From assembly GCF_005484805.1 (NCBI RefSeq), contig NZ_CP039432.1, positions 4,774,001 through 4,838,000 of the forward strand: a stretch of 64,000 nt of DNA, read 5' to 3'. The position numbers were made by a program, and so were the translations under genes. Position 1 is the stretch's first letter. Each line of letters begins with the position of its first letter. The notes under the pieces were generated by a model, which worked only from the letters and a program-made list of their open reading frames with translations, had not been told where the DNA came from and did no database searches. This document shows positions 4,541 to 24,562 of the stretch, in pieces. The stretch comes from Rhodococcus sp. SGAir0479. Lineage in GTDB: Bacteria; Actinomycetota; Actinomycetes; Mycobacteriales; Mycobacteriaceae.

Positions 4541-5695
<1,155 letters not shown>

Positions 5696-5714
5696 TCCGA
5701 CTGGTCCTCACCAC

Positions 5715-6482
5715 TCACGAACGCCCTGCCGGTTCCCCGTGAACCGGCAGGGCGTTCGCGTTTCGGTGGAGGCGGGGATGCCGTCGGACGCCCTTGCGGG
5801 CGACGCCGGCGATCTGGGTGTTGACCTGCAGGAACGGTGAGCGCAGCCGGTAGGCGTCGATGTCGGTCTCGGCGAAGCCGGCGGCCTCGACGACGGCCTG
5901 CAGGTCCCGCTCGCAGGAGCAGCCCTCGAACGTCCACCCCCAGGGCCGGCGGGACGCGCGCTGCAGGCGGCGCAGCGCCGTGCCGTCCGGGGCGGCGACG
6001 TGTTCGAGGAACGCGTAGCGCCCGCCGGGGCGCAGGACGCGGTGGACCTCGGCGACGACGGTGGCAGGGTCGGCCACGGTGCAGAGCACCAGACTCGAGA
6101 GCACCGCGTCCACGGACGCGTCGGGTAGGTCGAGGCTCTCGGCGCCGGTGGTGTGCAGTTCGAGGTCGATGTGGGCCCGGGCGGCGCGCGCCCGCAGACG
6201 CTCGTGCATGGCCGGGTTCGGTTCCACGGCGATCAGCCGGGTGCCGGCGCGGAGGTAACGCAGGTTGGCGCCCACACCGGGCCCCAGCTCGACGACGGTC
6301 GGGGGCAGGTTGCCGAAAAGGGATTGCTTGTGCGGCCGCAACAGGTGATCGAGGTACCGATCGAGTGCGGTGAAGAACAGGGCGTTGAACGGTCCGCGGA
6401 GCGGATGCGGCCGGAAGCCTTCCGGCGTGGTCGGTGCGTGCTCCTCCGGTCGGAACGACAACACGTCGTGGCTGCTGTCCAT
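5715..6482 (-). CDS. Class I SAM-dependent methyltransferase, METTL7-like
   Basis: A 255-residue Rossmann-fold methyltransferase. Motif I is VVELGPGVGANL (about 60-72), with a motif-II acidic residue in IAVEPNPAM and a Methyltransf_11-type core VDAVLSSLVLCTV. The C-terminal part (RPGGRYAFLEHV, then a W-G-x-T-F-E-G-C segment) resembles the METTL7 group, some of which are thiol methyltransferases. AAAGGAG precedes the ATG. The last 14 or so codons are encoded within the 5718-5758 hairpin. Substrate is unknown. It is a probable accessory gene inserted within the sterol cluster. Confidence 0.8.
   Translation of the reverse strand: MDSSHDVLSFRPEEHAPTTPEGFRPHPLRGPFNALFFTALDRYLDHLLRPHKQSLFGNLPPTVVELGPGVGANLRYLRAGTRLIAVEPNPAMHERLRARAARAHIDLELHTTGAESLDLPDASVDAVLSSLVLCTVADPATVVAEVHRVLRPGGRYAFLEHVAAPDGTALRRLQRASRRPWGWTFEGCSCERDLQAVVEAAGFAETDIDAYRLRSPFLQVNTQIAGVARKGVRRHPRLHRNANALPVHGEPAGRS
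5718..5758. terminator. Strong bidirectional hairpin terminator
   Basis: A perfect 18-bp stem (5718-5735 pairing with 5741-5758) with a 5-nt loop lies between the convergent fadA6 and methyltransferase genes. It overlaps the last codons of the methyltransferase. No U-tract is seen, which is common in GC-rich actinobacteria. Confidence 0.85.
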
Positions 6483-6635
6483 CGCCGAGGCTCCTTTCGA
6501 GTGGGTGGTGGAGTGCTCGTGCCGACAAGCCTCGCGGAGCCGCGCGCCGGCGAACAGGCGGGAATCACCCCAACCGGTACCTCAATTCGGTACCTGGCTG
6601 CACTCCATCGGGAGGAGCGATCCGGTGCCCGGGTC

Positions 6636-7715
6636 TCACTCCGGTGCCTGGGCGTCGCCGCGGCGTCCCCACCAGGCGGCAACCTGCGCGCGGGAGGTGA
6701 CACCGAGTCGGAGCCGGATGCGTTCGACGTGTCCCTCCGCGGAGCGCTCTTCGATACCCAGTCGACGGCCGATCTGACGATTGGTCATGCCCTCGGCCAC
6801 CAGCGCCGCGACCTGCAGTTGCCGCGGGGTCAGCTCGGCCGGCCCGTCGGGTCGCCGCTCCCGGGAGGGGCGCGACCCGTCCTCCAAGAACTCCAGCACG
6901 GCTCGGACGATCGCGGCGGCGTCGCCCACGAACGGGACATGGCTGTCGCCGGGCAACGTCACCAGCCGCGCTCCGGAAATTCGGGCGGCCAGGTCCCGGC
7001 CCGCGCGGTAGGGAATCGCCCGGTCCCCGCGGCGGTGTACCACCAGCGTCGGGGCCGCCACCCGGTCGAGCAGCGGACGCACGTCGATCTCGTAGCACTG
7101 CGCGAGCAGGTCGGCTGCGAGCCGGGGTGATGCCGCCGCGCGTTGCAGCCGCGTGAAGAGCGCCCTCGTTCCGGCGGCGCCGTCCGGGAGGAAGACGTCG
7201 GCCAGCAGTTCCGACCCCAGGCCCCAGTGGGCCCGGACCAGGCCCAGCATGGCCGTGCGCACCTCCGGCGCGGCGACCTGCGACCCGTCGGCGTAACCGC
7301 CGTACAGGACGAGCCGGCCGAGTCGCTCGGGAAACCGCGCCGCGGCCGCGATCGACACCGGGGCGCCCAGCGAGATGCCCAAAAGGTCGAAACGCTCCAG
7401 CTCCAGATGCGCGGTGACGGCCTGCAGCACCGTCAGGTCCGAGTCCAGCCCCTGCGCCTGGGGCCAGGGATCGGACAGCCCGCAGCCCAGCCGGTCGTAC
7501 TGCACCACCGTCCGGACGGCGGAGAGCGGTGCGAAGAACGCGCGATAGGCCGGGTCCTGCCATTGCAGTTCCAGGTGGCTGACCCACGCTGCCGGCACGA
7601 CCAGCGGCGGGCCCTGTCCCATGCAGGCGTACGCGACACGGGCGCCGGCGGGCGTCGTGCAGAAGCGGACCGGGCGGCGTGGATCGGGTGCCTCGCGGCA
7701 GCGGGGTGGGCCCAT
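6636..7715 (-). CDS. Alpha/beta-hydrolase fused to LuxR-type DNA-binding domain
   Basis: A 359-residue regulator. The N-terminal hydrolase-like domain carries GQGPPLVVPA and the nucleophile elbow GISLGAP (Ser115), with a late histidine in LPGDSHVPFVGD. The C-terminal LuxR domain (about 295-350) reads LTPRQLQVAALVAEGMTNRQIG followed by GIEERSAEGHV. This architecture suggests transcription controlled by binding or hydrolysis of a small molecule. The start at 7713-7715 was chosen for GGAGG at 5-nt spacing; in-frame ATGs at 7754 and 7757 have no such site. It lies between the methyltransferase and the P450 on the same strand and may regulate them (inference). Confidence 0.82.
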   Translation of the reverse strand: MGPPRCREAPDPRRPVRFCTTPAGARVAYACMGQGPPLVVPAAWVSHLELQWQDPAYRAFFAPLSAVRTVVQYDRLGCGLSDPWPQAQGLDSDLTVLQAVTAHLELERFDLLGISLGAPVSIAAAARFPERLGRLVLYGGYADGSQVAAPEVRTAMLGLVRAHWGLGSELLADVFLPDGAAGTRALFTRLQRAAASPRLAADLLAQCYEIDVRPLLDRVAAPTLVVHRRGDRAIPYRAGRDLAARISGARLVTLPGDSHVPFVGDAAAIVRAVLEFLEDGSRPSRERRPDGPAELTPRQLQVAALVAEGMTNRQIGRRLGIEERSAEGHVERIRLRLGVTSRAQVAAWWGRRGDAQAPE

Positions 7716-7794
7716 GTGGGCCTCCAACATTGCGATGTCTACCGTCCCCACCATCATGCCCGAAGTGGTGGCCGCGGGCGTGCCGTGGGGCCGG

Positions 7795-9198
7795 TCAGCC
7801 GCGTGGGCGCGGTCGCAGCGTCAGGGTGAAGCCGACCGGCATGAGCGTCAGCCGTTCCTGGATGCGCAGTTGGTAGTCGGGGTCCGCGGCGAAGTCGTAG
7901 CGGCGCAGGATCGTACCCAACACGAGGACCGCCTCGTGGATGGCGAATTGCCTTCCGATGCAGGCTCGCTCACCGGTGCCGAACGGCTTGTAGACGTGCG
8001 GTGCCCGACCACGGACGTGCTCGGGCGCGAAACGGTCCGGGTCGAAGCGCTCGGGATCCGGCCCCCACGCCGGGTCGCGGTGCAACGACGGAATCAGCAC
8101 GAGCACCCAGTCCCCGGCCTTCATGGGATACCGGCCGGCCAGAACCGTGTCCCCGCGGGCTTCGCGGGCGTAGGCGGGCGCCGTCGGCCACAGCCGCAGC
8201 GTCTCGTCGAGGACGCGCCGGACGTACCGCAATTTCGCGACCTTCTCGAAGGGCGGCGGCCCGCCGTCCCACACCGCGTCGACCTCGGCACGCGCGGCGG
8301 CCAGGATCTCCGGGTTTCGGGCGAGATAGTACAACGCGAAGGATAGTGCGCCGGAAGTGGTTTCGTGTCCCGCGACCAGGAACGTCACCACCTGGTTGCG
8401 GATGTTCACCTCGTCGAGACGGTTCGGATCGTCCTCGCGGGCCGCGCGCAGCATGATCTCGAGAAGATCCTCGGGCCCGTCCTCCGCGTTGTCACGGCGC
8501 CGGCGAATCACCTCGTCGACCACGTCCGTCAGATAGGTGGTGTCGGCGAGATTCTGGCGGTCGGACTTGCGGTACAACAACTTCGATACTCCCGGCACGT
8601 TGCGGAACGTGCGGCGTTGCGCGTGCGTCAACGCACGGACCATCGCCTCGACGAACGGGTGCGGCCGCGCGCGGTGGAACGAATCGAACGAGTAACTGAA
8701 ACCCGCGCGCCCGATCGTCTCGAGGGTCAGCTTCGTCATGTCCGACGACACGTCCACCGGCGTGCGTCCGGCGCAGCGGTCCCACTGCTCGGTGAGTTCG
8801 CCGACCACCCGGACCATGATGTCGTGGTACGAGCGCATCGCCGACTGGGTGAAGGCCGGGCGCAGCAGGTTGTGGGCCCGGGCCCAGTTCGGTTCCTCGT
8901 TGTACGCGGTGAACAGGCCGTCGCCGCCGATGCCGCGCAACTCGGCGATCCCGGGCGCGACGTTCTTCGCGAAGCGGGTCTCGTCGGACAGTTCGGCCAC
9001 CATGTCGGCGCCCGAGACGAACACGAACCTGTTGCCGAGTGCCCGGCGCTCGAAGATCGGACCCAGTTGCCGGCCCAGCCGCATGGAGTCCTGGACCGGG
9101 GTGTGCAGCGAGACGCCGAGAACGTCACCGAGCACGGGTAGCCGCCGCGGCGGATGCGGGATGGCAGTGGCCTCGGTCGCGTTCTCTACGACATACAT
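7795..9198 (-). CDS. Cytochrome P450, CYP102-like heme domain without reductase
   Basis: A 467-residue P450 with the I-helix motif AGHETTSGALSF, ETLR (ExxR) and the heme loop YKPFGTGERACIG (Cys413). The C-terminal third closely follows the heme domain of P450 BM3 (CYP102A1), including the stretch after the cysteine (RQFAIHEAVLVLG). CYP102 enzymes hydroxylate fatty acids and are normally fused to a diflavin reductase; here the protein ends after the heme domain and no reductase or ferredoxin gene is adjacent. There is no clear Shine-Dalgarno sequence. Paired palindromes lie 23-53 bp upstream of the start. Confidence 0.88.
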   Translation of the reverse strand: MYVVENATEATAIPHPPRRLPVLGDVLGVSLHTPVQDSMRLGRQLGPIFERRALGNRFVFVSGADMVAELSDETRFAKNVAPGIAELRGIGGDGLFTAYNEEPNWARAHNLLRPAFTQSAMRSYHDIMVRVVGELTEQWDRCAGRTPVDVSSDMTKLTLETIGRAGFSYSFDSFHRARPHPFVEAMVRALTHAQRRTFRNVPGVSKLLYRKSDRQNLADTTYLTDVVDEVIRRRRDNAEDGPEDLLEIMLRAAREDDPNRLDEVNIRNQVVTFLVAGHETTSGALSFALYYLARNPEILAAARAEVDAVWDGGPPPFEKVAKLRYVRRVLDETLRLWPTAPAYAREARGDTVLAGRYPMKAGDWVLVLIPSLHRDPAWGPDPERFDPDRFAPEHVRGRAPHVYKPFGTGERACIGRQFAIHEAVLVLGTILRRYDFAADPDYQLRIQERLTLMPVGFTLTLRPRPRG

Positions 9199-9220
9199 CG
9201 TGCCCCCGCGGTCGTCGTCC

Positions 9221-9251
9221 GGTATCCGATACCGAAAGTACCTGGTACCAG
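9221..9251. repeat. Two short palindromes upstream of the P450 gene
   Basis: GGTATCCGATACC (9221-9233) and TGGTACCA (9244-9251) are adjacent palindromes in the P450 promoter region, between it and the divergent DUF2277 gene. They could be operator sites; the cognate regulator is not identified. Confidence 0.5.
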
Positions 9252-9300
9252 CCGCCGGTGGCAGCCTTTCGCGCGGGCGGACACGGGGCTACCGTTCGAG

Positions 9301-9586
9301 CATGTGCCGAAACATCACCGAGTTGCGTGGACTCGAGCCGGCCGCCACCGCCGAGGAGATCGAGGCCGCCGCGCGGCAGTACGTCCGCAAGGTCAGCGGA
9401 ATCCAGAAGATCACCGATGCCAACCGGGACGCCTTCGAGAAAGCGGTCGCGGAGGTGACGGCCACGACGACGGAGCTGCTCGCAGGGTTGCCGCCGCGCC
9501 GGCAACCACCACGGACCGTCCCGCCGCTGCGCCGGCCCGAGGTGCGGGCGCGGATGGCAGCGAAGGGTGCGGCCGCGGGTTCGTGA
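9301..9586 (+). CDS. DUF2277 family protein
   Basis: A short basic protein of about 94 residues starting MCRNITELRGLEP at the ATG in 9301-9303. The start MCRNI, the helical segment ATAEEIEAAARQYVRKVSGI and the later KITDANRDAFEKAV are typical of DUF2277 proteins, which are widespread in actinobacteria and have no established function. The C-terminus is rich in Pro and Arg. It is divergent from the P450 gene, and no operon partner is evident. Confidence 0.8.
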
Positions 9587-9857
9587 CTCCAGGGGCGCGC
9601 TGACGTCGGGGCGTCCGGTCTGTATATTCGCTGTGCACGAAACCGGCCGGGGGGACATCGGCCGGCGGGGGATGTTTCACGTGATGGGGGCAGCACGTGT
9701 GCCGAGGGGGATCGCCGGGCGCACACGTGCTCTCGGGGTGGGTGCGCCGAGCGCAGCCGATCGCGCCTCGCATCAAGGGCTGTCGCATCTTCCGCCGCGC
9801 CGACCCTGTCGACCGATTCGCGTGACTTCGTCGAGGACACCGAGGGGGATTCGAGAG

Positions 9858-11006
9858 ATGGGTAGGCACCACAGGAAGCGGACGGCAGGGGCCGTGGCGA
9901 AGGTGGCGATCGTGCCGTCCGCGGCGGCGGCGGTGATCGTCGCCGCGTCGGGCGCGGCATCGGCCGCACCGAACCAGCTGCCGCCGCAGGGCGGTGTCAC
10001 GTCCGGTCCGTCGACGCAGGGCGGTGTGACGTCGGCGCCGACGACTCAGGGCGGGGTCACCTCGGCGCCCGCGCAGCCGGAGCCGGTGTACTGGATCGAA
10101 CCGCCGGCGCAGTACCAGAACATCGAGTACCAGCCGCTCGAGAACTACGACTACGACACCGACACCTACGACGCGCCCGACGACTACTACGTCGCGCCGG
10201 TCCAGGTCTCCGACCTCCACCTGCCGACCTACGTCGAGCCCACCGCGCCCATCATCGCGCCGCGCGAGACGCTACGACTGGGCACTTTCCATGCGCCGCA
10301 ACCCAACTGGATCACCGACGGCGACCTGGCCCGGACCAACAACACCACCGCGGTCGTGGAGGCCCAGGTGTCGACCTTCTGGCGGTCACTCGGCATCGAG
10401 ACCACTCGCGCGAATCGACTGGCGGCGGCGCAGATCGGAATGGGTGCCGCGGGTGCGGTCACCGGTGCTGCGGTCGCCGGTGGACTCGCGGCGTTGGCCG
10501 GCGGCGCTGTGGGAACGTACGTGGGTGTCACCTTGGGAGTCGGTGCGGAAGGGCTGTTCGTCCCAGGCATCGGCTTCGTGACGACCGTCGGTACTGCCGT
10601 CGGGGCTGCTTCGGCGGGCGTTCCCGCGGCCGTGCTCGGTGGGGCGGTAGGTGCTGGGCTCGGTGTGGTCGCCGGCACCGCCATCGGCGCCGGAGATCTC
10701 GGCGAACCGCGTGATCTGCCGATCCCGGACGTCGACAAGCCGGCGATCACGGCGCAGACGCAGGAGACGCTGACGCAGTGGGGGTCGACGCCGGCCGGTG
10801 CGGCTGCGGCGTCGACGGTCCGCGACACGGTGACCGCGGCGCCCGGAATCGATCGACAGGCGCGGGAGTTCGTGTCCGCGCAGCCCGGCGGTGACCGGGT
10901 CCTCGAGCAGGTCGACGCCGGACTGTCGACCTTCTTCGCCGATTCGTCGCTCGGTGTCGCGTCGAACATGATCAGCGACGCCGTCGGGACCGGCATCCAG
11001 GCGTGA
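9858..11006 (+). CDS. Secreted or surface Gly/Ala-rich protein of unknown function
   Basis: About 382 residues. It has an N-terminal signal peptide: basic start MGRHHRKR, a hydrophobic core and an ASAAPN cleavage-type site near residue 37. Three copies of a GGVTSxPxxQ repeat follow, then an acidic Tyr/Asp-rich stretch, then two long Gly/Ala hydrophobic segments (about residues 193-280) that could insert into a membrane. The GTG or ATG starts further upstream (for example 9672) were rejected because they would bury the signal peptide. It is followed 46 bp downstream by a membrane protein and then a ParA-like gene, apparently one operon. No family is recognised with confidence. Confidence 0.7.
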   Translation: MGRHHRKRTAGAVAKVAIVPSAAAAVIVAASGAASAAPNQLPPQGGVTSGPSTQGGVTSAPTTQGGVTSAPAQPEPVYWIEPPAQYQNIEYQPLENYDYDTDTYDAPDDYYVAPVQVSDLHLPTYVEPTAPIIAPRETLRLGTFHAPQPNWITDGDLARTNNTTAVVEAQVSTFWRSLGIETTRANRLAAAQIGMGAAGAVTGAAVAGGLAALAGGAVGTYVGVTLGVGAEGLFVPGIGFVTTVGTAVGAASAGVPAAVLGGAVGAGLGVVAGTAIGAGDLGEPRDLPIPDVDKPAITAQTQETLTQWGSTPAGAAAASTVRDTVTAAPGIDRQAREFVSAQPGGDRVLEQVDAGLSTFFADSSLGVASNMISDAVGTGIQA

Positions 11007-11052
11007 GACCGGGGTGGGCCCGTCCGGGCCCACCCCACCTGCAGGAGGGCAC

Positions 11053-11868
11053 ATGGCGACGGACAATTCTCTCTTCCCGGACGTCACCGAACGCTACGAA
11101 CGGGACCCGTCTGCGGAAGACGCTGCCGCGCAGGCCATCGAGGCCGATCCGCCGGCCGCGGCGCCCCGACCGGTCGCAGCCGCCGAACCGGCCGCGGCCG
11201 GTGCCGGCGCGCTGTTGCCGGACGATTTCGACCATGCCCCGGCCTGGCTGGCCGCCCCCGAGTCGGCGCCCGACTCCGGCAAGCAGGCACCGTCCGGCCC
11301 CCGCGAACGCAAGCCGCTCGTGCTCGCCACGGTCGGCGCCGCGCTGGTCGCGATCGCCGGGTGCGCGACGGCCGTCGTCCTCCGCGGCGGCACGATCGAG
11401 TCGACGGAGGGCACACCGAGGGCGGCTGCCGCGGTGGCGACCCCGTCGTCGTCCCCGTCGTCGGTCCTCGCCCCGCCGGCCCCACAGCCGGCGCCCGCGG
11501 AACCCACATGGTGCGCGGAGTCGACCGTCGCCGGTCGCAGCGTCGGCAGCGGGCCGGGCAGTACGTCCGACGGGCCCGGCGTCATCCGCGCGTTCGATCA
11601 CGCGTACTACGCGGCCCGGGACGGAGGCCGCGTCGCGTCCCTCATGGTTGCCCCCGGTCCGGTGCCCGAGATCCAGCGATGGATCGACGACGTCCCCGCG
11701 GGGAGCCGACACTGCGTCACGGTCACCGAGACCCCCGACCCGAACGTGTACGCGGTGGAGCTGGGTCTGCGGATGCCGGGGAGACCGGACGGGGTCATCC
11801 GTCAACGAGTCACGGTGACGCCGTCACCGACCGGGTTCAAGGTCGCCAAGGTGGAGGACTCGCAGTGA
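11053..11868 (+). CDS. Single-pass membrane protein with extracytoplasmic domain, unknown
   Basis: 271 residues: an acidic Ala/Pro-rich cytoplasmic N-terminus, one transmembrane helix at about residues 83-105 (PLVLATVGAALVAIAGCATA), a Ser/Pro linker and a C-terminal globular domain beginning WCAESTVAGRSVGSGPG with paired cysteines (WCA and HCVT). This resembles single-pass proteins found near conjugation or secretion genes in Rhodococcus, but no transfer genes are present here. GGAGG precedes the ATG. The stop overlaps the GTG of the next gene, so the two are coupled. Confidence 0.68.
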   Translation: MATDNSLFPDVTERYERDPSAEDAAAQAIEADPPAAAPRPVAAAEPAAAGAGALLPDDFDHAPAWLAAPESAPDSGKQAPSGPRERKPLVLATVGAALVAIAGCATAVVLRGGTIESTEGTPRAAAAVATPSSSPSSVLAPPAPQPAPAEPTWCAESTVAGRSVGSGPGSTSDGPGVIRAFDHAYYAARDGGRVASLMVAPGPVPEIQRWIDDVPAGSRHCVTVTETPDPNVYAVELGLRMPGRPDGVIRQRVTVTPSPTGFKVAKVEDSQ

Positions 11869-20438: not shown

Positions 20439-20486
20439 GCCCGTGCGCCTTTCCGGTAGCTGGAGCTACCGAAAAGGCGCACGGGC
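20439..20486. terminator. Long palindrome, copy 1 (terminator-like dispersed repeat)
   Basis: A 22-bp stem with one mismatch (20439-20460 with 20465-20486) and a TGGA loop, starting 10 bp after the SDR stop. Its arms share CCCGTGCG...TTCCGGTAG with a second palindrome at 24515-24562, so this is a repeated element and not just a local terminator. Confidence 0.85.
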
Positions 20487-20584
20487 AGCTTGCTGCTCTG
20501 GCCGAGATCGCCGCGGGACGCTACGCTTGCGACGATGACTACCTACTCTGATCAAAGATTGGGGGCCCAGTTCACACACGGTGA

Positions 20585-21961
20585 GTGCTGATGCACCCTC
20601 CGACCGTGAGCGGGATAGAACCCCGACTGTCCTTCTGGCTGCGCGCGCGAGAGTTCGCTGTGCCGCCCTCCATGATCGAGACCGCCACCGCCCGCCGTCG
20701 TGTCGGCGACTGGTTCGGCGCTTGTGCCGCAGCAGGTTTCGATGCCGAAATCGATCTGCACGCCCTCGCCCGTGAACACGGCCGCGCCGTCGCGACGCGG
20801 GTCCTGGCCGACCTGCGACATCTGGCGCCCGACCTGCTGCGATGGCACCTACCGCGGGTGGCACCCGACGGGCTCCTGCGCCCCGGGCTGACCGTCGCAC
20901 TGGCTCGGTACGGACCGATTCGGCACCGAAGACGTTGTGCCGAGAACGATTCGGTGTACCTCGTGGCCCGCACCGCCCCGGCCTGGGCCGACGCCGGGCA
21001 GCGGATCGTGCTGACTCTGTGGGACGGCTCCGGCGCCTCCCGGCAATCCCACCCGCATTTCCGGCCCAACCGGCGTTACCGGTTGGACCTCCATCGACAC
21101 CTGTGGGATGCGCGCCGATGCGGTGATCTGCGAAGGCGTTGCGGCGCATCGCAATCGGCAGGAGATGCCGGGTTCGACCCGGCTCTCACGGAAGTCGTGC
21201 CGGACGGCTGCGCCGTCGACCGGTGGGCGGCCGAAATCGGTATCCTGCTGCGCGCGGACGGGCTTCGCGACGGACCGGTGCGGGTGCGGTGCGGGAGTTC
21301 CGCCGACCTGGTGGTGGAACCGGCCGCGGGCATCGACATGGCCGGATTGCGGCTCGTGGACGACTACCCGCGGGGACGACTCGCTGCCCTCCCGGTGCTT
21401 CCCGATGCAGCGATCCGCGTGCCGCCCGATCTCGAGTTGCTCAGATCGGGAGCGATCACCGCCGACCGGTTGCACCCGCTGGTCGCCGCGGCCCTGGAGC
21501 CGGGGTGGGAGCCGCCGCTCGGAACCCGAACACCGCGCCCGGAGAAGCGCATTCATCTGGTGGACTGCCGCGGGGAGCGACACCGGATCGGACTGTCCGA
21601 CGGTGCCCTGACCGCTCTCGATCACGACCCCGCCGAGATCCGGCGCGAGGAACTGCTCGTCGCGCTGGGCGGAACACCGCTCCCGTGCCTGCAGGCCATC
21701 GACCGGGCCCACCGCCGTCCCGACTGTCTACCCGGCGTCCGCGAACGCCTGGACCACGGAGACACCGCGGGCGCGCTCGCAGTCGTCGAAGAACTTCTCG
21801 GCCCGGACGCCGTCCTCCGTGACGGACCGTTGCTGGACGAACTCCGGGCGTGCGCCGATCGTCACGACACGTACGACCGATTCCGTTCCACGCCACCGGA
21901 GGCACCGCCCGCATCGCGTCCCCGACGCGGCCGACGGTCGCGCGGCGCCCTGTCCAGCTGA
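20585..21961 (+). CDS. Uncharacterised protein, first gene of a MoxR-VWA trio
   Basis: 458 residues, Arg-rich, with no recognised domain, no signal peptide and no transmembrane segment. Visible blocks are PRLSFWLRAREFAVPPSMIE, a beta-rich middle with VRVRCGSSADLVVEPAAGID, and a C-terminal part KRIHLVDCRGERHRIGLSDG followed by helices and a basic tail. A GTG at 20585 or an ATG two codons later may be the start; no strong ribosome-binding site is seen. The same-strand arrangement with the ATPase and VWA genes suggests it is the third partner or substrate adaptor of that system. Confidence 0.7.
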   Translation: MLMHPPTVSGIEPRLSFWLRAREFAVPPSMIETATARRRVGDWFGACAAAGFDAEIDLHALAREHGRAVATRVLADLRHLAPDLLRWHLPRVAPDGLLRPGLTVALARYGPIRHRRRCAENDSVYLVARTAPAWADAGQRIVLTLWDGSGASRQSHPHFRPNRRYRLDLHRHLWDARRCGDLRRRCGASQSAGDAGFDPALTEVVPDGCAVDRWAAEIGILLRADGLRDGPVRVRCGSSADLVVEPAAGIDMAGLRLVDDYPRGRLAALPVLPDAAIRVPPDLELLRSGAITADRLHPLVAAALEPGWEPPLGTRTPRPEKRIHLVDCRGERHRIGLSDGALTALDHDPAEIRREELLVALGGTPLPCLQAIDRAHRRPDCLPGVRERLDHGDTAGALAVVEELLGPDAVLRDGPLLDELRACADRHDTYDRFRSTPPEAPPASRPRRGRRSRGALSS

Positions 21962-22044
21962 TCTCGCTATCTCCGAACAATCTGTCGCGCAGCGTGATCG
22001 AACGCCCGCGCGCTGTGACTCCTTCGACACCACAGGTGATGCAC

Positions 22045-23280
22045 ATGTCTTCCGCACTTCTTCCGCCCCCGTCCGCGACCGTCGAGCTCGACAGCGCCGC
22101 CGCGCTCTCGGCGTTGCTGGACACGGTCGACTCCGAACCCCGCCCCGACGACCAGTTGGACGCGCTCACCCTCGCCGTGGCCGCGGACCTGCCGGTACTG
22201 CTGTGGGGTGAACCGGGCATCGGCAAGACCGCCGCCCTGACCCAGCTCGCCGAGGCTCTGGACCTGCCGCTGACCACCGTCATCGCAAGCGTGCACGAGC
22301 CGTCGGACTTCTCGGGTCTGCCCGTCCTCGGGGACGACCCGGCAACCCACGGGGTCCCGATGGCCCCGCCCGACTGGGCCGTCCGGCTCGTGCAGGCCGG
22401 TCGGGGACTGCTGTTCCTGGACGAACTGTCGACCGCGCCGCCCGCCGTGCAGGCGGCGCTGCTGCGGCTCGTCCTCGAGCGGAGAATCGGGTCCCTGAAA
22501 CTTCCGCCCGGGGTACGCATCGTCGCCGCCGCCAACCCGCCGTCGTCGGCAGCGGACGGTTGGGAACTGAGCGCACCGCTGGCCAACCGATTCGTGCACC
22601 TGCACTGGACGCACGATCACGAGGTGGTCGTCCGGGGTCTCGGTGGCACCTGGCCCCGCGCGACACTGCCTCGCCTCGACCCGGAGAAGTTCTCCTCCGC
22701 AGTGACATTCGCCCGCCGCGCGGTCTGCGAGCTGCTGACCGTTCGCCCCGCGCTGGTACACCGACTTCCCGGCAGCCAGACTCGCCGCGGCGGCGCCTGG
22801 CCGTCGCCGCGCAGCTGGGACATGACTGTCCGGCTGATCGCGTTCGCCACCGCCGCCTCGGCGTCGACCGACGTCCTGTCCCTGCTGGTGCGGGGCAGCG
22901 TCGGCGACGGCGCCGGTTTCGAGTTGCTGGCCGCCATCGACCGGATGGACCTCCCGGACCCGGAGACGCTGCTCGCCGACCCGGCGGCGGCAGACCTGCC
23001 CGAACGCGGCGACCTGCGTCAGGCCGTGCTCGACGCCGTCGTGGCCGCCGTCCGGCGGCAGCCGGAGAGGCGTCGCTGGGATGCCGCGTGGACGCTGCTG
23101 GTGGCCGCGGTGCGGACCGGACCGCCGGATCTCGTGGTCGTGCCGGCCACCACCCTGGCCACCTTGCGCCGGGACGACTGGGAGGTGCCGGCGGCCGTCG
23201 ATCGACTGACCGGTGTCGTGTCCGTGTCACAGGCGGCGGACCGGGCCGCCGACCGCGCCGGCGTGCAGGTGAAAAGATGA
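22045..23280 (+). CDS. MoxR-like AAA+ ATPase
   Basis: A 411-residue AAA+ protein: Walker A GEPGIGKTA (55-63), Walker B GLLFLDELS (121-129) and sensor 1 IVAAANPP. The VHEPSDFSGLPVLGDD segment between them is typical of MoxR proteins, chaperone-like ATPases that work with VWA-domain partners. An ATG at 22039 is an alternative start. Its stop overlaps the ATG of the VWA gene (ATGA), so ATPase and VWA protein are translationally coupled. Confidence 0.87.
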   Translation: MSSALLPPPSATVELDSAAALSALLDTVDSEPRPDDQLDALTLAVAADLPVLLWGEPGIGKTAALTQLAEALDLPLTTVIASVHEPSDFSGLPVLGDDPATHGVPMAPPDWAVRLVQAGRGLLFLDELSTAPPAVQAALLRLVLERRIGSLKLPPGVRIVAAANPPSSAADGWELSAPLANRFVHLHWTHDHEVVVRGLGGTWPRATLPRLDPEKFSSAVTFARRAVCELLTVRPALVHRLPGSQTRRGGAWPSPRSWDMTVRLIAFATAASASTDVLSLLVRGSVGDGAGFELLAAIDRMDLPDPETLLADPAAADLPERGDLRQAVLDAVVAAVRRQPERRRWDAAWTLLVAAVRTGPPDLVVVPATTLATLRRDDWEVPAAVDRLTGVVSVSQAADRAADRAGVQVKR

Positions 23281-24503
23281 CCGCGGCGACCCCGCTCGAC
23301 CCGGAGAAGATCTATGCTGCGCGGTTGCACGCCGTCCGCGCCCGGCCCTATCTGGCGACTGCCCTGTACGCGCTGCACATCGTCGCGTCGCCGCGGGTAC
23401 CGACGATGAGTGTGGACCGGCACTGGCGTTGCTACGCCTCGCCGGCGTTCGTCGCCCAGCGGCCGGTGGAGGTCCTGGCCTCGCACCTGGTCCACGGGGT
23501 CTCGCACCTGCTGCGCGACCACCACGGCCGCAGCGATCGCTACGCCCGCGCCCACAAGCTGACCGGACCCGCGGAGCGGCTACGGATGAACCTCGCTGCC
23601 GACGCGGAGATCAACGACGACGCGTTCGGCGACGGATTGCCGTTACCCGACGACGCCGTGCTGCCCGCGACCCTCGGCTTGCCCGGCGACCAGCTCATGG
23701 AGGACTACCTGCGCCAGTTCCGTCTCGGCCCCCGCACCGACGGGCTGACGTGGCTCGACTGCGGCAGTGGCGCCGACGGTCTGTGTCGCGAGTGGGAACT
23801 CGGCCCCGCCGGCGCGAACGCGCTCACCGACCAGCAACGCGACGCAGTCCGGTTCCGGGTGGCGCAGAGCATCACCGGACGGCCCGGGCAGGCATCCCGC
23901 GGATGGCGGCGCTGGGCGCAGGAGACGCTGCACCCGGCGCAGCCGTGGCGAGCGCTGCTGGGCGCGGCGATCCGCTCCGCCACCTCCTCCTCCGGCACCG
24001 GCGAGAACTACACCTACCAGCGCCCGGCGCGGCGTTCGGCGGCCGTGCCCGGTGCGATCCTGCCGAGCCTGAGGCGCACGCCACCTCGGGTCAGCGTCGT
24101 CGTCGACACGTCGGGATCGGTCAGCGACACGGATCTGGGCAGCGCGCTGCTCGAGGTGGCGGCCATAACGCGCGCCGTGGGCGGGCGGCGTGACCTGGTG
24201 ACGGTGCTCTCGTGCGATGCGGCGGCCCGGGTCGTGCACCCGCTGTGTCGGGCCGAGGACATTCCGCTGTTCGGAGGCGGGGGCACCGACCTGCGTGCCG
24301 GGTTCGCCGCGGCAGTGCGCGGCCGACCCCGCCCCGACGTGGTGGTCGTCCTCACCGACGGGCAGACCCCGTGGCCGGTCGATCGACCCGGATGTCGAAC
24401 GGTGGTGGGCCTGTTCCCCCGGGTGGGTCCGCACCCTCGGCGGGACGACGAGTACGTCCCCGATCGGCCACCGGAGTGGGCTCGTGTGGTGCAGATCGGC
24501 TGA
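23277..24503 (+). CDS. VWA-like protein with degenerate metallopeptidase-like N-domain (DUF2201 type)
   Basis: 408 residues. The N-terminal domain has HLVHGVSHLLRDHH (about 70-83), a zinc-peptidase-like HxxxH in which the catalytic Glu of HExxH is Gly. The C-terminal VWA-like domain has the MIDAS sequence DTSGS (277-281), a downstream GGGGTDLRAGF and VVVLTDGQTPWP. This is the DUF2201 architecture found beside MoxR ATPases. With Glu absent, proteolysis is doubtful and metal-dependent binding more likely. The gene overlaps the ATPase gene by 4 bp, and a palindromic terminator follows. Confidence 0.85.
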   Translation: MTAATPLDPEKIYAARLHAVRARPYLATALYALHIVASPRVPTMSVDRHWRCYASPAFVAQRPVEVLASHLVHGVSHLLRDHHGRSDRYARAHKLTGPAERLRMNLAADAEINDDAFGDGLPLPDDAVLPATLGLPGDQLMEDYLRQFRLGPRTDGLTWLDCGSGADGLCREWELGPAGANALTDQQRDAVRFRVAQSITGRPGQASRGWRRWAQETLHPAQPWRALLGAAIRSATSSSGTGENYTYQRPARRSAAVPGAILPSLRRTPPRVSVVVDTSGSVSDTDLGSALLEVAAITRAVGGRRDLVTVLSCDAAARVVHPLCRAEDIPLFGGGGTDLRAGFAAAVRGRPRPDVVVVLTDGQTPWPVDRPGCRTVVGLFPRVGPHPRRDDEYVPDRPPEWARVVQIG

Positions 24504-24514
24504 GCGGCTCTGCC

Positions 24515-24562
24515 GCCCGTGCGTCGTTCCGGTAGTGGCGGCTACCGAAAGGGCGCACGGGC
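24515..24562. terminator. Long palindrome, copy 2 of the dispersed repeat
   Basis: A 21-bp stem with three mismatches (24515-24535 with 24542-24562) lies between the VWA gene and the convergent GNAT gene. It shares its outer CCCGTGCG/CGCACGGG and inner CCGGTAG/CTACCGAAA blocks with copy 1 at 20439-20486. Confidence 0.85.

Follow-up and report, generated by a model that had tools for sequence, protein, structure and literature searches.

An apparently transferable actinobacterial MoxR-VWA cassette with a CHHC-bearing third component and a conserved leader open reading frame

MoxR-vWA pairs are common in genomes and mostly of unknown purpose, and a locus in Rhodococcus sp. SGAir0479 raises the question of what such a pair acts on. 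The window is the 64,000-nucleotide stretch of contig NZ_CP039432.1 from 4,774,001 to 4,838,000. Between positions 20535 and 24503 it holds four co-oriented open reading frames (ORFs) on the + strand: a leader ORF, a gene here called P1, a MoxR ATPase gene, and the gene of a VWA protein of the DUF2201 type, the last two overlapping by ATGA at 23277-23280 (Table 1). The three larger genes and this overlap were proposed in an earlier note made from the letters alone, and all are present; the P1 start has been shifted from GTG 20585 to the likelier ATG 20591 because a conserved leader ORF ends there in TGATG. Domain searches agree with that note on the two recognizable proteins, with matches to AAA_5 (E 2.5e-9), DUF2201_N (1.7e-22), and DUF2201 (1.5e-15). 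The best reading of the locus, held with about as much doubt as confidence, is that MoxR-VWA remodels P1, which would be its dedicated adaptor or sensor.

The association of P1 with the pair carries this reading. A scan of named genomes with the P1 alignment gave at least 431 relatives among at least 596 pattern matches, and the best 80 loci were kept. MoxR follows P1 in 78 of the 80 and VWA in 77; where a partner is missing, the contig ends (L086 and L109 for both genes, L054 for VWA). This three-gene order is far beyond chance. Co-occurrence was counted in 150 genomes of one genus, presumably Streptomyces, where the nearest named loci to the P1 loci sampled are those of Streptomyces and one unclassified actinobacterium. 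P1 is matched in 80 of these genomes and VWA in 84: 77 have both, 63 neither, 3 only P1, and 7 only VWA. With one row per gene kept when a match came in pieces, there are 94 P1 and 97 VWA places, and VWA lies within 6 kb on the same strand at 84 of the 94; several of the split cases are small contigs or fragments. In genome G608, ∼38 kb separate P1 from VWA on the same chromosome, and the two lie on opposite strands (C1, 8211478 and 8250667), as after an inversion. In an order-level sample, P1-like matches occur in 24 of 298 genomes, the window's included. The survey thus bears out P1 as a regular third member of the system, and P1 is not found mostly without the ATPase and VWA genes.

Table 1. 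Features of the cassette and its borders (positions in the window)
Feature	Position	Strand	Remarks
Left copy of dispersed palindrome, terminator-like stem	20440..20485	.	congener empty sites carry one palindrome
-10 box TACGCT, 7 nt ahead of leader ORF start	20522..20527	+	TANNNT 7-11 nt before leader start in 75/76 loci
Leader ORF MTTYSDQRLGAQFTHGEC plus stop, 18 codons, probably leaderless; TGA overlaps P1 ATG as TGATG	20535..20591	+	
Block GGTGAGTGCTGATG: Shine-Dalgarno-like GGTGAG, leader stop, P1 start	20580..20593	+	exact in 70/80 loci, one change in 6
P1, third partner, 456 aa from ATG	20591..21961	+	GTG 20585 (458 aa) also possible
MoxR-type AAA+ ATPase	22039 (or 22045)..23280	+	AAA_5 E 2.5e-9; 78/80 loci
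VWA protein, zincin-like DUF2201_N and DUF2201, MIDAS present, HGVSH for HEVSH	23277..24503	+	
Right palindrome copy, between VWA and convergent GNAT gene	24516..24561	.	

Among the three proteins P1 varies most, with a mean distance between loci of 0.33, compared to 0.25 for VWA and 0.17 for MoxR; its distances correlate with those of MoxR (r 0.85) and VWA (r 0.71). The tree, built from the 78 of 81 rows having all three genes, places the window trio with Rhodococcus and Prescottella, and genus labels mostly cluster on it (7 changes versus a shuffled mean of 29.5). Such clustering would suit a housekeeping or stress chaperone serving one enzyme or membrane complex, as NorQ/NorD, CbbQ/CbbO, and RavA/ViaA do, with P1 as the adaptor, and the characterized MoxR proteins covered by the cited account are mostly tied to the maturation of particular complexes (PMC3893208). 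Set against this are the neighborhoods, which share no client gene: outside the trio no cluster of ORFs of ≥80 aa (60% coverage, E 1e-15, <97% identity) is common to at least 8 of the 80 loci. In two genera, moreover, roughly half of the sampled species lack the cassette. A housekeeping role is a weaker candidate. The suggestion of the earlier note that the trio may be a chaperone for a nearby enzyme finds no support, because no neighbor is shared and the cassette occupies different sites from one genome to another.

Of 14 Rhodococcus genomes, the window's own included, 7, again with the window's, carry the trio. In all seven congener regions examined, a short-chain dehydrogenase/reductase (SDR) gene lies directly beside genes for a GNAT protein, an F420-dependent reductase, a thiolase, and a P450, with no trio between; in three of these genomes the trio is absent, and in the other four it lies at another place. 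All six other trio-bearing congeners have it away from the window site, and L182 and L184 share one site by inspection of the six. Judged by gene order, the window copy is an insertion and not the ancestral arrangement, as the earlier note had supposed; among the congeners examined, no ancestral order with the trio in place is seen. Each of the seven empty sites carries a single palindrome between SDR and GNAT, varying in sequence and nearest to the window's in L176, whereas the window has two, one on either side of the trio. Half-sites of this palindrome recur genome-wide (40 at ≤3 mismatches, compared to 2 for a reversed control). The cassette therefore seems to have entered, or to have been bounded, at a dispersed palindrome, which could be a recombination landing site. 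P1 also occurs on nine Streptomyces or Embleya plasmid records, and in the five copies opened MoxR/AAA and VWA genes follow it each time. On this genomic evidence the cassette is a self-contained, transferable unit that has moved around actinobacterial genomes.

Movement between sites, the plasmid copies, and patchy presence (7 of 14 in Rhodococcus, both genes in 77 of 150 genomes of the other genus) speak for a conflict system, anti-phage or self-limiting. Here, P1 or leucine-rich repeat (LRR) and ankyrin proteins would sense an invader, and MoxR-VWA would license the response, as proposed for VMAP, iSTAND, and TERNS3. The fast evolution of P1 and the LRR and ankyrin modules of its relatives fit this scheme, and the gene order is that of the VMAP systems, likewise common in actinobacteria according to the sections cited (PMC7159879). 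The Pfam scan of the trio, in contrast, recognizes no effector domain, and the window VWA match ends at residue 379 of 408 with no further domain or effector found. PADLOC gives weak AAA matches of MoxR and none for P1 or VWA. Product names around the five plasmid copies include no named defense system, though one copy neighbors an IS256 transposase, an SOS peptidase, and a DUF1524 protein, and the window site lies among CoA-transferase, enoyl-CoA hydratase, SDR, thiolase, and P450 genes. A conflict role for the cassette is plausible; as the explanation of it, we regard it as tentative.

P1 itself matches no Pfam, NCBIfam, or PADLOC family (the best Pfam E value, 0.034, fails the cut-off) and no match among PDB sequences at E up to 1. 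To this extent the earlier description of a third partner without a visible domain stands, but alignment of relatives makes two features visible. The first is a set of residues invariant in 16 rows of P1 and divergent homologues: C45, C326, H331, H345, and C366. The last four form the window signature C326-x4-H331-x13-H345-x20-C366, here called CHHC. The pattern C-x4-H-x12-14-H-x18-22-C is found in 81 of 81 close members and a looser form in 13 of 13 further ORFs, two of which (L164 and L165) are close members; all 19 P1-like ORFs of 18 divergent loci carry the signature as well, five of them being also among the 13. In the AlphaFold model, strands at 322-326, 329-336, and 339-342 followed by a helix surround these residues, and the module is perhaps a structural zinc site. 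The second feature is the C terminus, which can be aligned to the first of the ankyrin repeats in longer homologues and so looks like a shortened ankyrin end; P1 itself has no Pfam ankyrin match.

The constancy of CHHC (81/81 and 19/19) would also be expected if P1 were the client, a metal-dependent protein at whose CHHC site MoxR-VWA inserts or arranges the metal. The VWA MIDAS (metal ion-dependent adhesion site) motif is kept, and metal insertion into protoporphyrin is a VWA function named in the sections cited (PMC3893208). This explanation is nevertheless unlikely: no enzyme fold is found, CHHC has the look of a small structural zinc site, and the ankyrin-bearing relatives point to binding and not to catalysis.

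The divergent P1 places number 16, counted apart from a 50-aa fragment in G721. For the locus study, 15 places were taken together with three stretches of the order-level sample and one VWA-only stretch. Pfam matches ankyrin repeats in the divergent P1 proteins, in some cases below the curated cut-off, and an LRR gene lies adjacent upstream in 15 of the 18 P1-like loci, the loci tested for one being all but L156, L159, and L174. LRR_6 is confirmed by Pfam in all six scanned (L155, L202, L204, L207, L210, and L216), and in L155 the P1-like gene begins at a GTG that overlaps the LRR stop codon. Three distant genomes of the phylum have CHHC proteins of ∼300 aa downstream of MoxR-VWA, one of these genomes three in tandem; their CHHC agreement is partly circular because they were found by a profile match to the same region. 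Sequence comparison thus gives the third component three or more layouts, among them leader-P1-MoxR-VWA, LRR-ankyrin CHHC-MoxR-VWA, and MoxR-VWA-CHHC with one to three copies.

Some single loci show further arrangements. L155 has two P1-like ankyrin genes, an LRR gene, and an SDR-like ORF beside MoxR-VWA at 5599-11492. ORF clusters in L207, L208, L209, L213, and L217 point to common flanks for the LRR subtype; MoxR-VWA is missing from L213, where P1 remains, and P1 from L217, where VWA and a piece of MoxR remain, as if one site decays piecemeal.

The two partner proteins show a more familiar architecture. The window MoxR has an AAA_5/MoxR-type ATPase domain with Walker A and lies beside the VWA gene; no Trp precedes Walker A in it, and the same holds for 72 of the 77 rows that have a GEPGIGKT motif (79 rows in all). 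All 78 VWA rows have a MIDAS-type DxSxS, and 75 of them the zincin HExxH, the others being the HGVSH sequences of the window, L046, and L047. The window VWA hence lacks the catalytic Glu of an active zincin. In cyanophage S-TIM66 (L193, 3926-6066), the MoxR gene of the phage overlaps a gene annotated as "hypothetical protein," a possible VWA partner.

The leader ORF may add a level of control to the commonest form of the cassette. It is present in 76 of the 80 loci and conserved between genera with in-frame length changes. Every one of 94 ATGs located 48-66 nt upstream of the leader-stop end is in frame; this count is separate from the 97-sequence leader set, which was picked for in-frame lengths, and serves as the unbiased frame test. 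In the block GGTGAGTGCTGATG at the P1 start, the change found in six loci is TGC to CGC. The TANNNT box has L092 as its sole exception, compared to a background, summed over loci, of ∼0.07 hits at each position of the 200 nt beyond it upstream. By analogy to known promoters, its spacing would make the leader ATG the first transcribed position, and the leader is probably translated from a leaderless mRNA. Within the ORF, substitutions alter amino acids and largely keep third codon positions, which suggests that frame and RNA matter more than the peptide. GGTGAG can pair downstream in a stem of at least 5 bp in 79% of 58 distinct sequences, compared to 35% of shuffled ones. The distant relatives L021 and L030 have, by eye, a different short ORF ending in ATGA at the P1 start. 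Prescottella defluvii (L047 and L034) has a P1 frame open from a GTG inside GGTGAG instead of the usual ATG, out of phase with relatives.

The preferred mechanism joins these elements. MoxR as AAA+ motor and the DUF2201 protein as VWA cochaperone with a zincin-like N-terminal domain would form an ATP-driven remodeling pair acting on P1. P1, which evolves fast and combines a conserved CHHC module with an ankyrin-derived C terminus, would be the adaptor or sensor, and remodeling may switch it between a resting and an active state; in a sister subtype, longer ankyrin proteins next to an LRR protein would take its place. The leader ORF would gate P1 synthesis through a hairpin that hides the P1 Shine-Dalgarno sequence, and ribosomes ending at the leader TGA would open this hairpin and restart at the overlapping P1 ATG. 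Linkage, insertion, the leader and its conservation, and the signatures are read from the genomes themselves; to these the mechanism would add complex formation, the direction of remodeling, metal binding, gating, and a biological role.

Several results weigh against this mechanism. On the side of gating, 4 of the 80 loci, all Nocardia, lack the leader; the hairpin test ignores the relatedness of the sequences; and the RNAalifold consensus structure of the leader is weak (-3.7 to -3.9 kcal/mol; structure alignments A2 with 71 and A3 with 64 of the 80 loci, plus the window). On the side of P1, the structure prediction that the earlier note had proposed gives a model of moderate quality (pLDDT, the predicted local distance difference test, 73.7; pTM, the predicted template modeling score, 0.63), and the model matches no fold among solved structures. 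A P1-like gene stands without MoxR or VWA in the stretches L156, L213, and L214. Finally, HGVSH replaces the zincin motif in five of six congeners (L183-L187, two of which are the genomes of L046 and L047) as well as in the window, with the operon kept, and the peptidase chemistry, if it ever occurs, therefore appears dispensable in this clade.

A broader and more speculative proposal, which we put forward as a possibility, is that of an undescribed immune-like MoxR-vWA class, defined by its CHHC third component and comprising the three or more layouts above. The motor would remodel recognition modules, and the commonest form seen would be gated by a leaderless ORF of 17-19 codons coupling translation of the sensor. 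A cassette with one regular, fast-evolving partner offers a testable motor substrate, and its presence in Streptomyces, for instance at locus L080 of S. violaceoruber NRRL S-981, makes study possible in laboratory strains. The CHHC domain supplies a profile for finding the whole class, and the leader mini-ORF offers a way to learn how translation is coupled on leaderless messages in actinobacteria.

Among known systems, the VMAP ternary systems come closest. The sections cited describe the order third component, MoxR, vWA, a wide occurrence in actinobacteria, and a fast-evolving third component, all shared by the cassette; they define VMAP by a VMAP-C domain, the MoxR N-terminal motifs WxhapG and PsWRxa, and a vWA followed by effector domains (PMC7159879). 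Of these four features the cassette shares the gene order; its MoxR lacks WxhapG/PsWRxa, the window vWA has no effector region after it, and a Pfam scan of P1 and 16 aligned members gives no VMAP-C match, to the extent that the library includes a VMAP-C model. The cassette vWA is instead of the DUF2201 zincin type, a name absent from the main text of PMC7159879, and a conserved leader ORF is present. iSTAND2 and TERNS3 resemble it in placing a further, distinct third component 5′ of MoxR-vWA, but the cassette shows neither their separate vWA-L/effector gene nor an EAD, TIR, or protease fusion; in the sections cited, ankyrin passages concern other proteins and DUF2201 is absent (PMC8195603). 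RavA-ViaA and NorQ likewise combine an AAA+ ATPase with a usually adjacent VWA partner, yet they serve a known client, and DUF2201, CHHC, and a leader do not feature in the sections cited (PMC3893208). Chaperone-like action of MoxR-VWA pairs is described in other systems (PMC3893208; PMC7824862). Group 2.2 jumbo phages place MoxR beside a vWA protein with an N-terminal metallopeptidase domain, with virion assembly as the proposed role and no third partner in the description cited (PMC7824862). The pair of MoxR and metallopeptidase-vWA is thus already known from jumbo phages; as far as the open-licence literature searched reaches, the third partner, its CHHC signature, the layouts, and the leader ORF are what the cassette adds.

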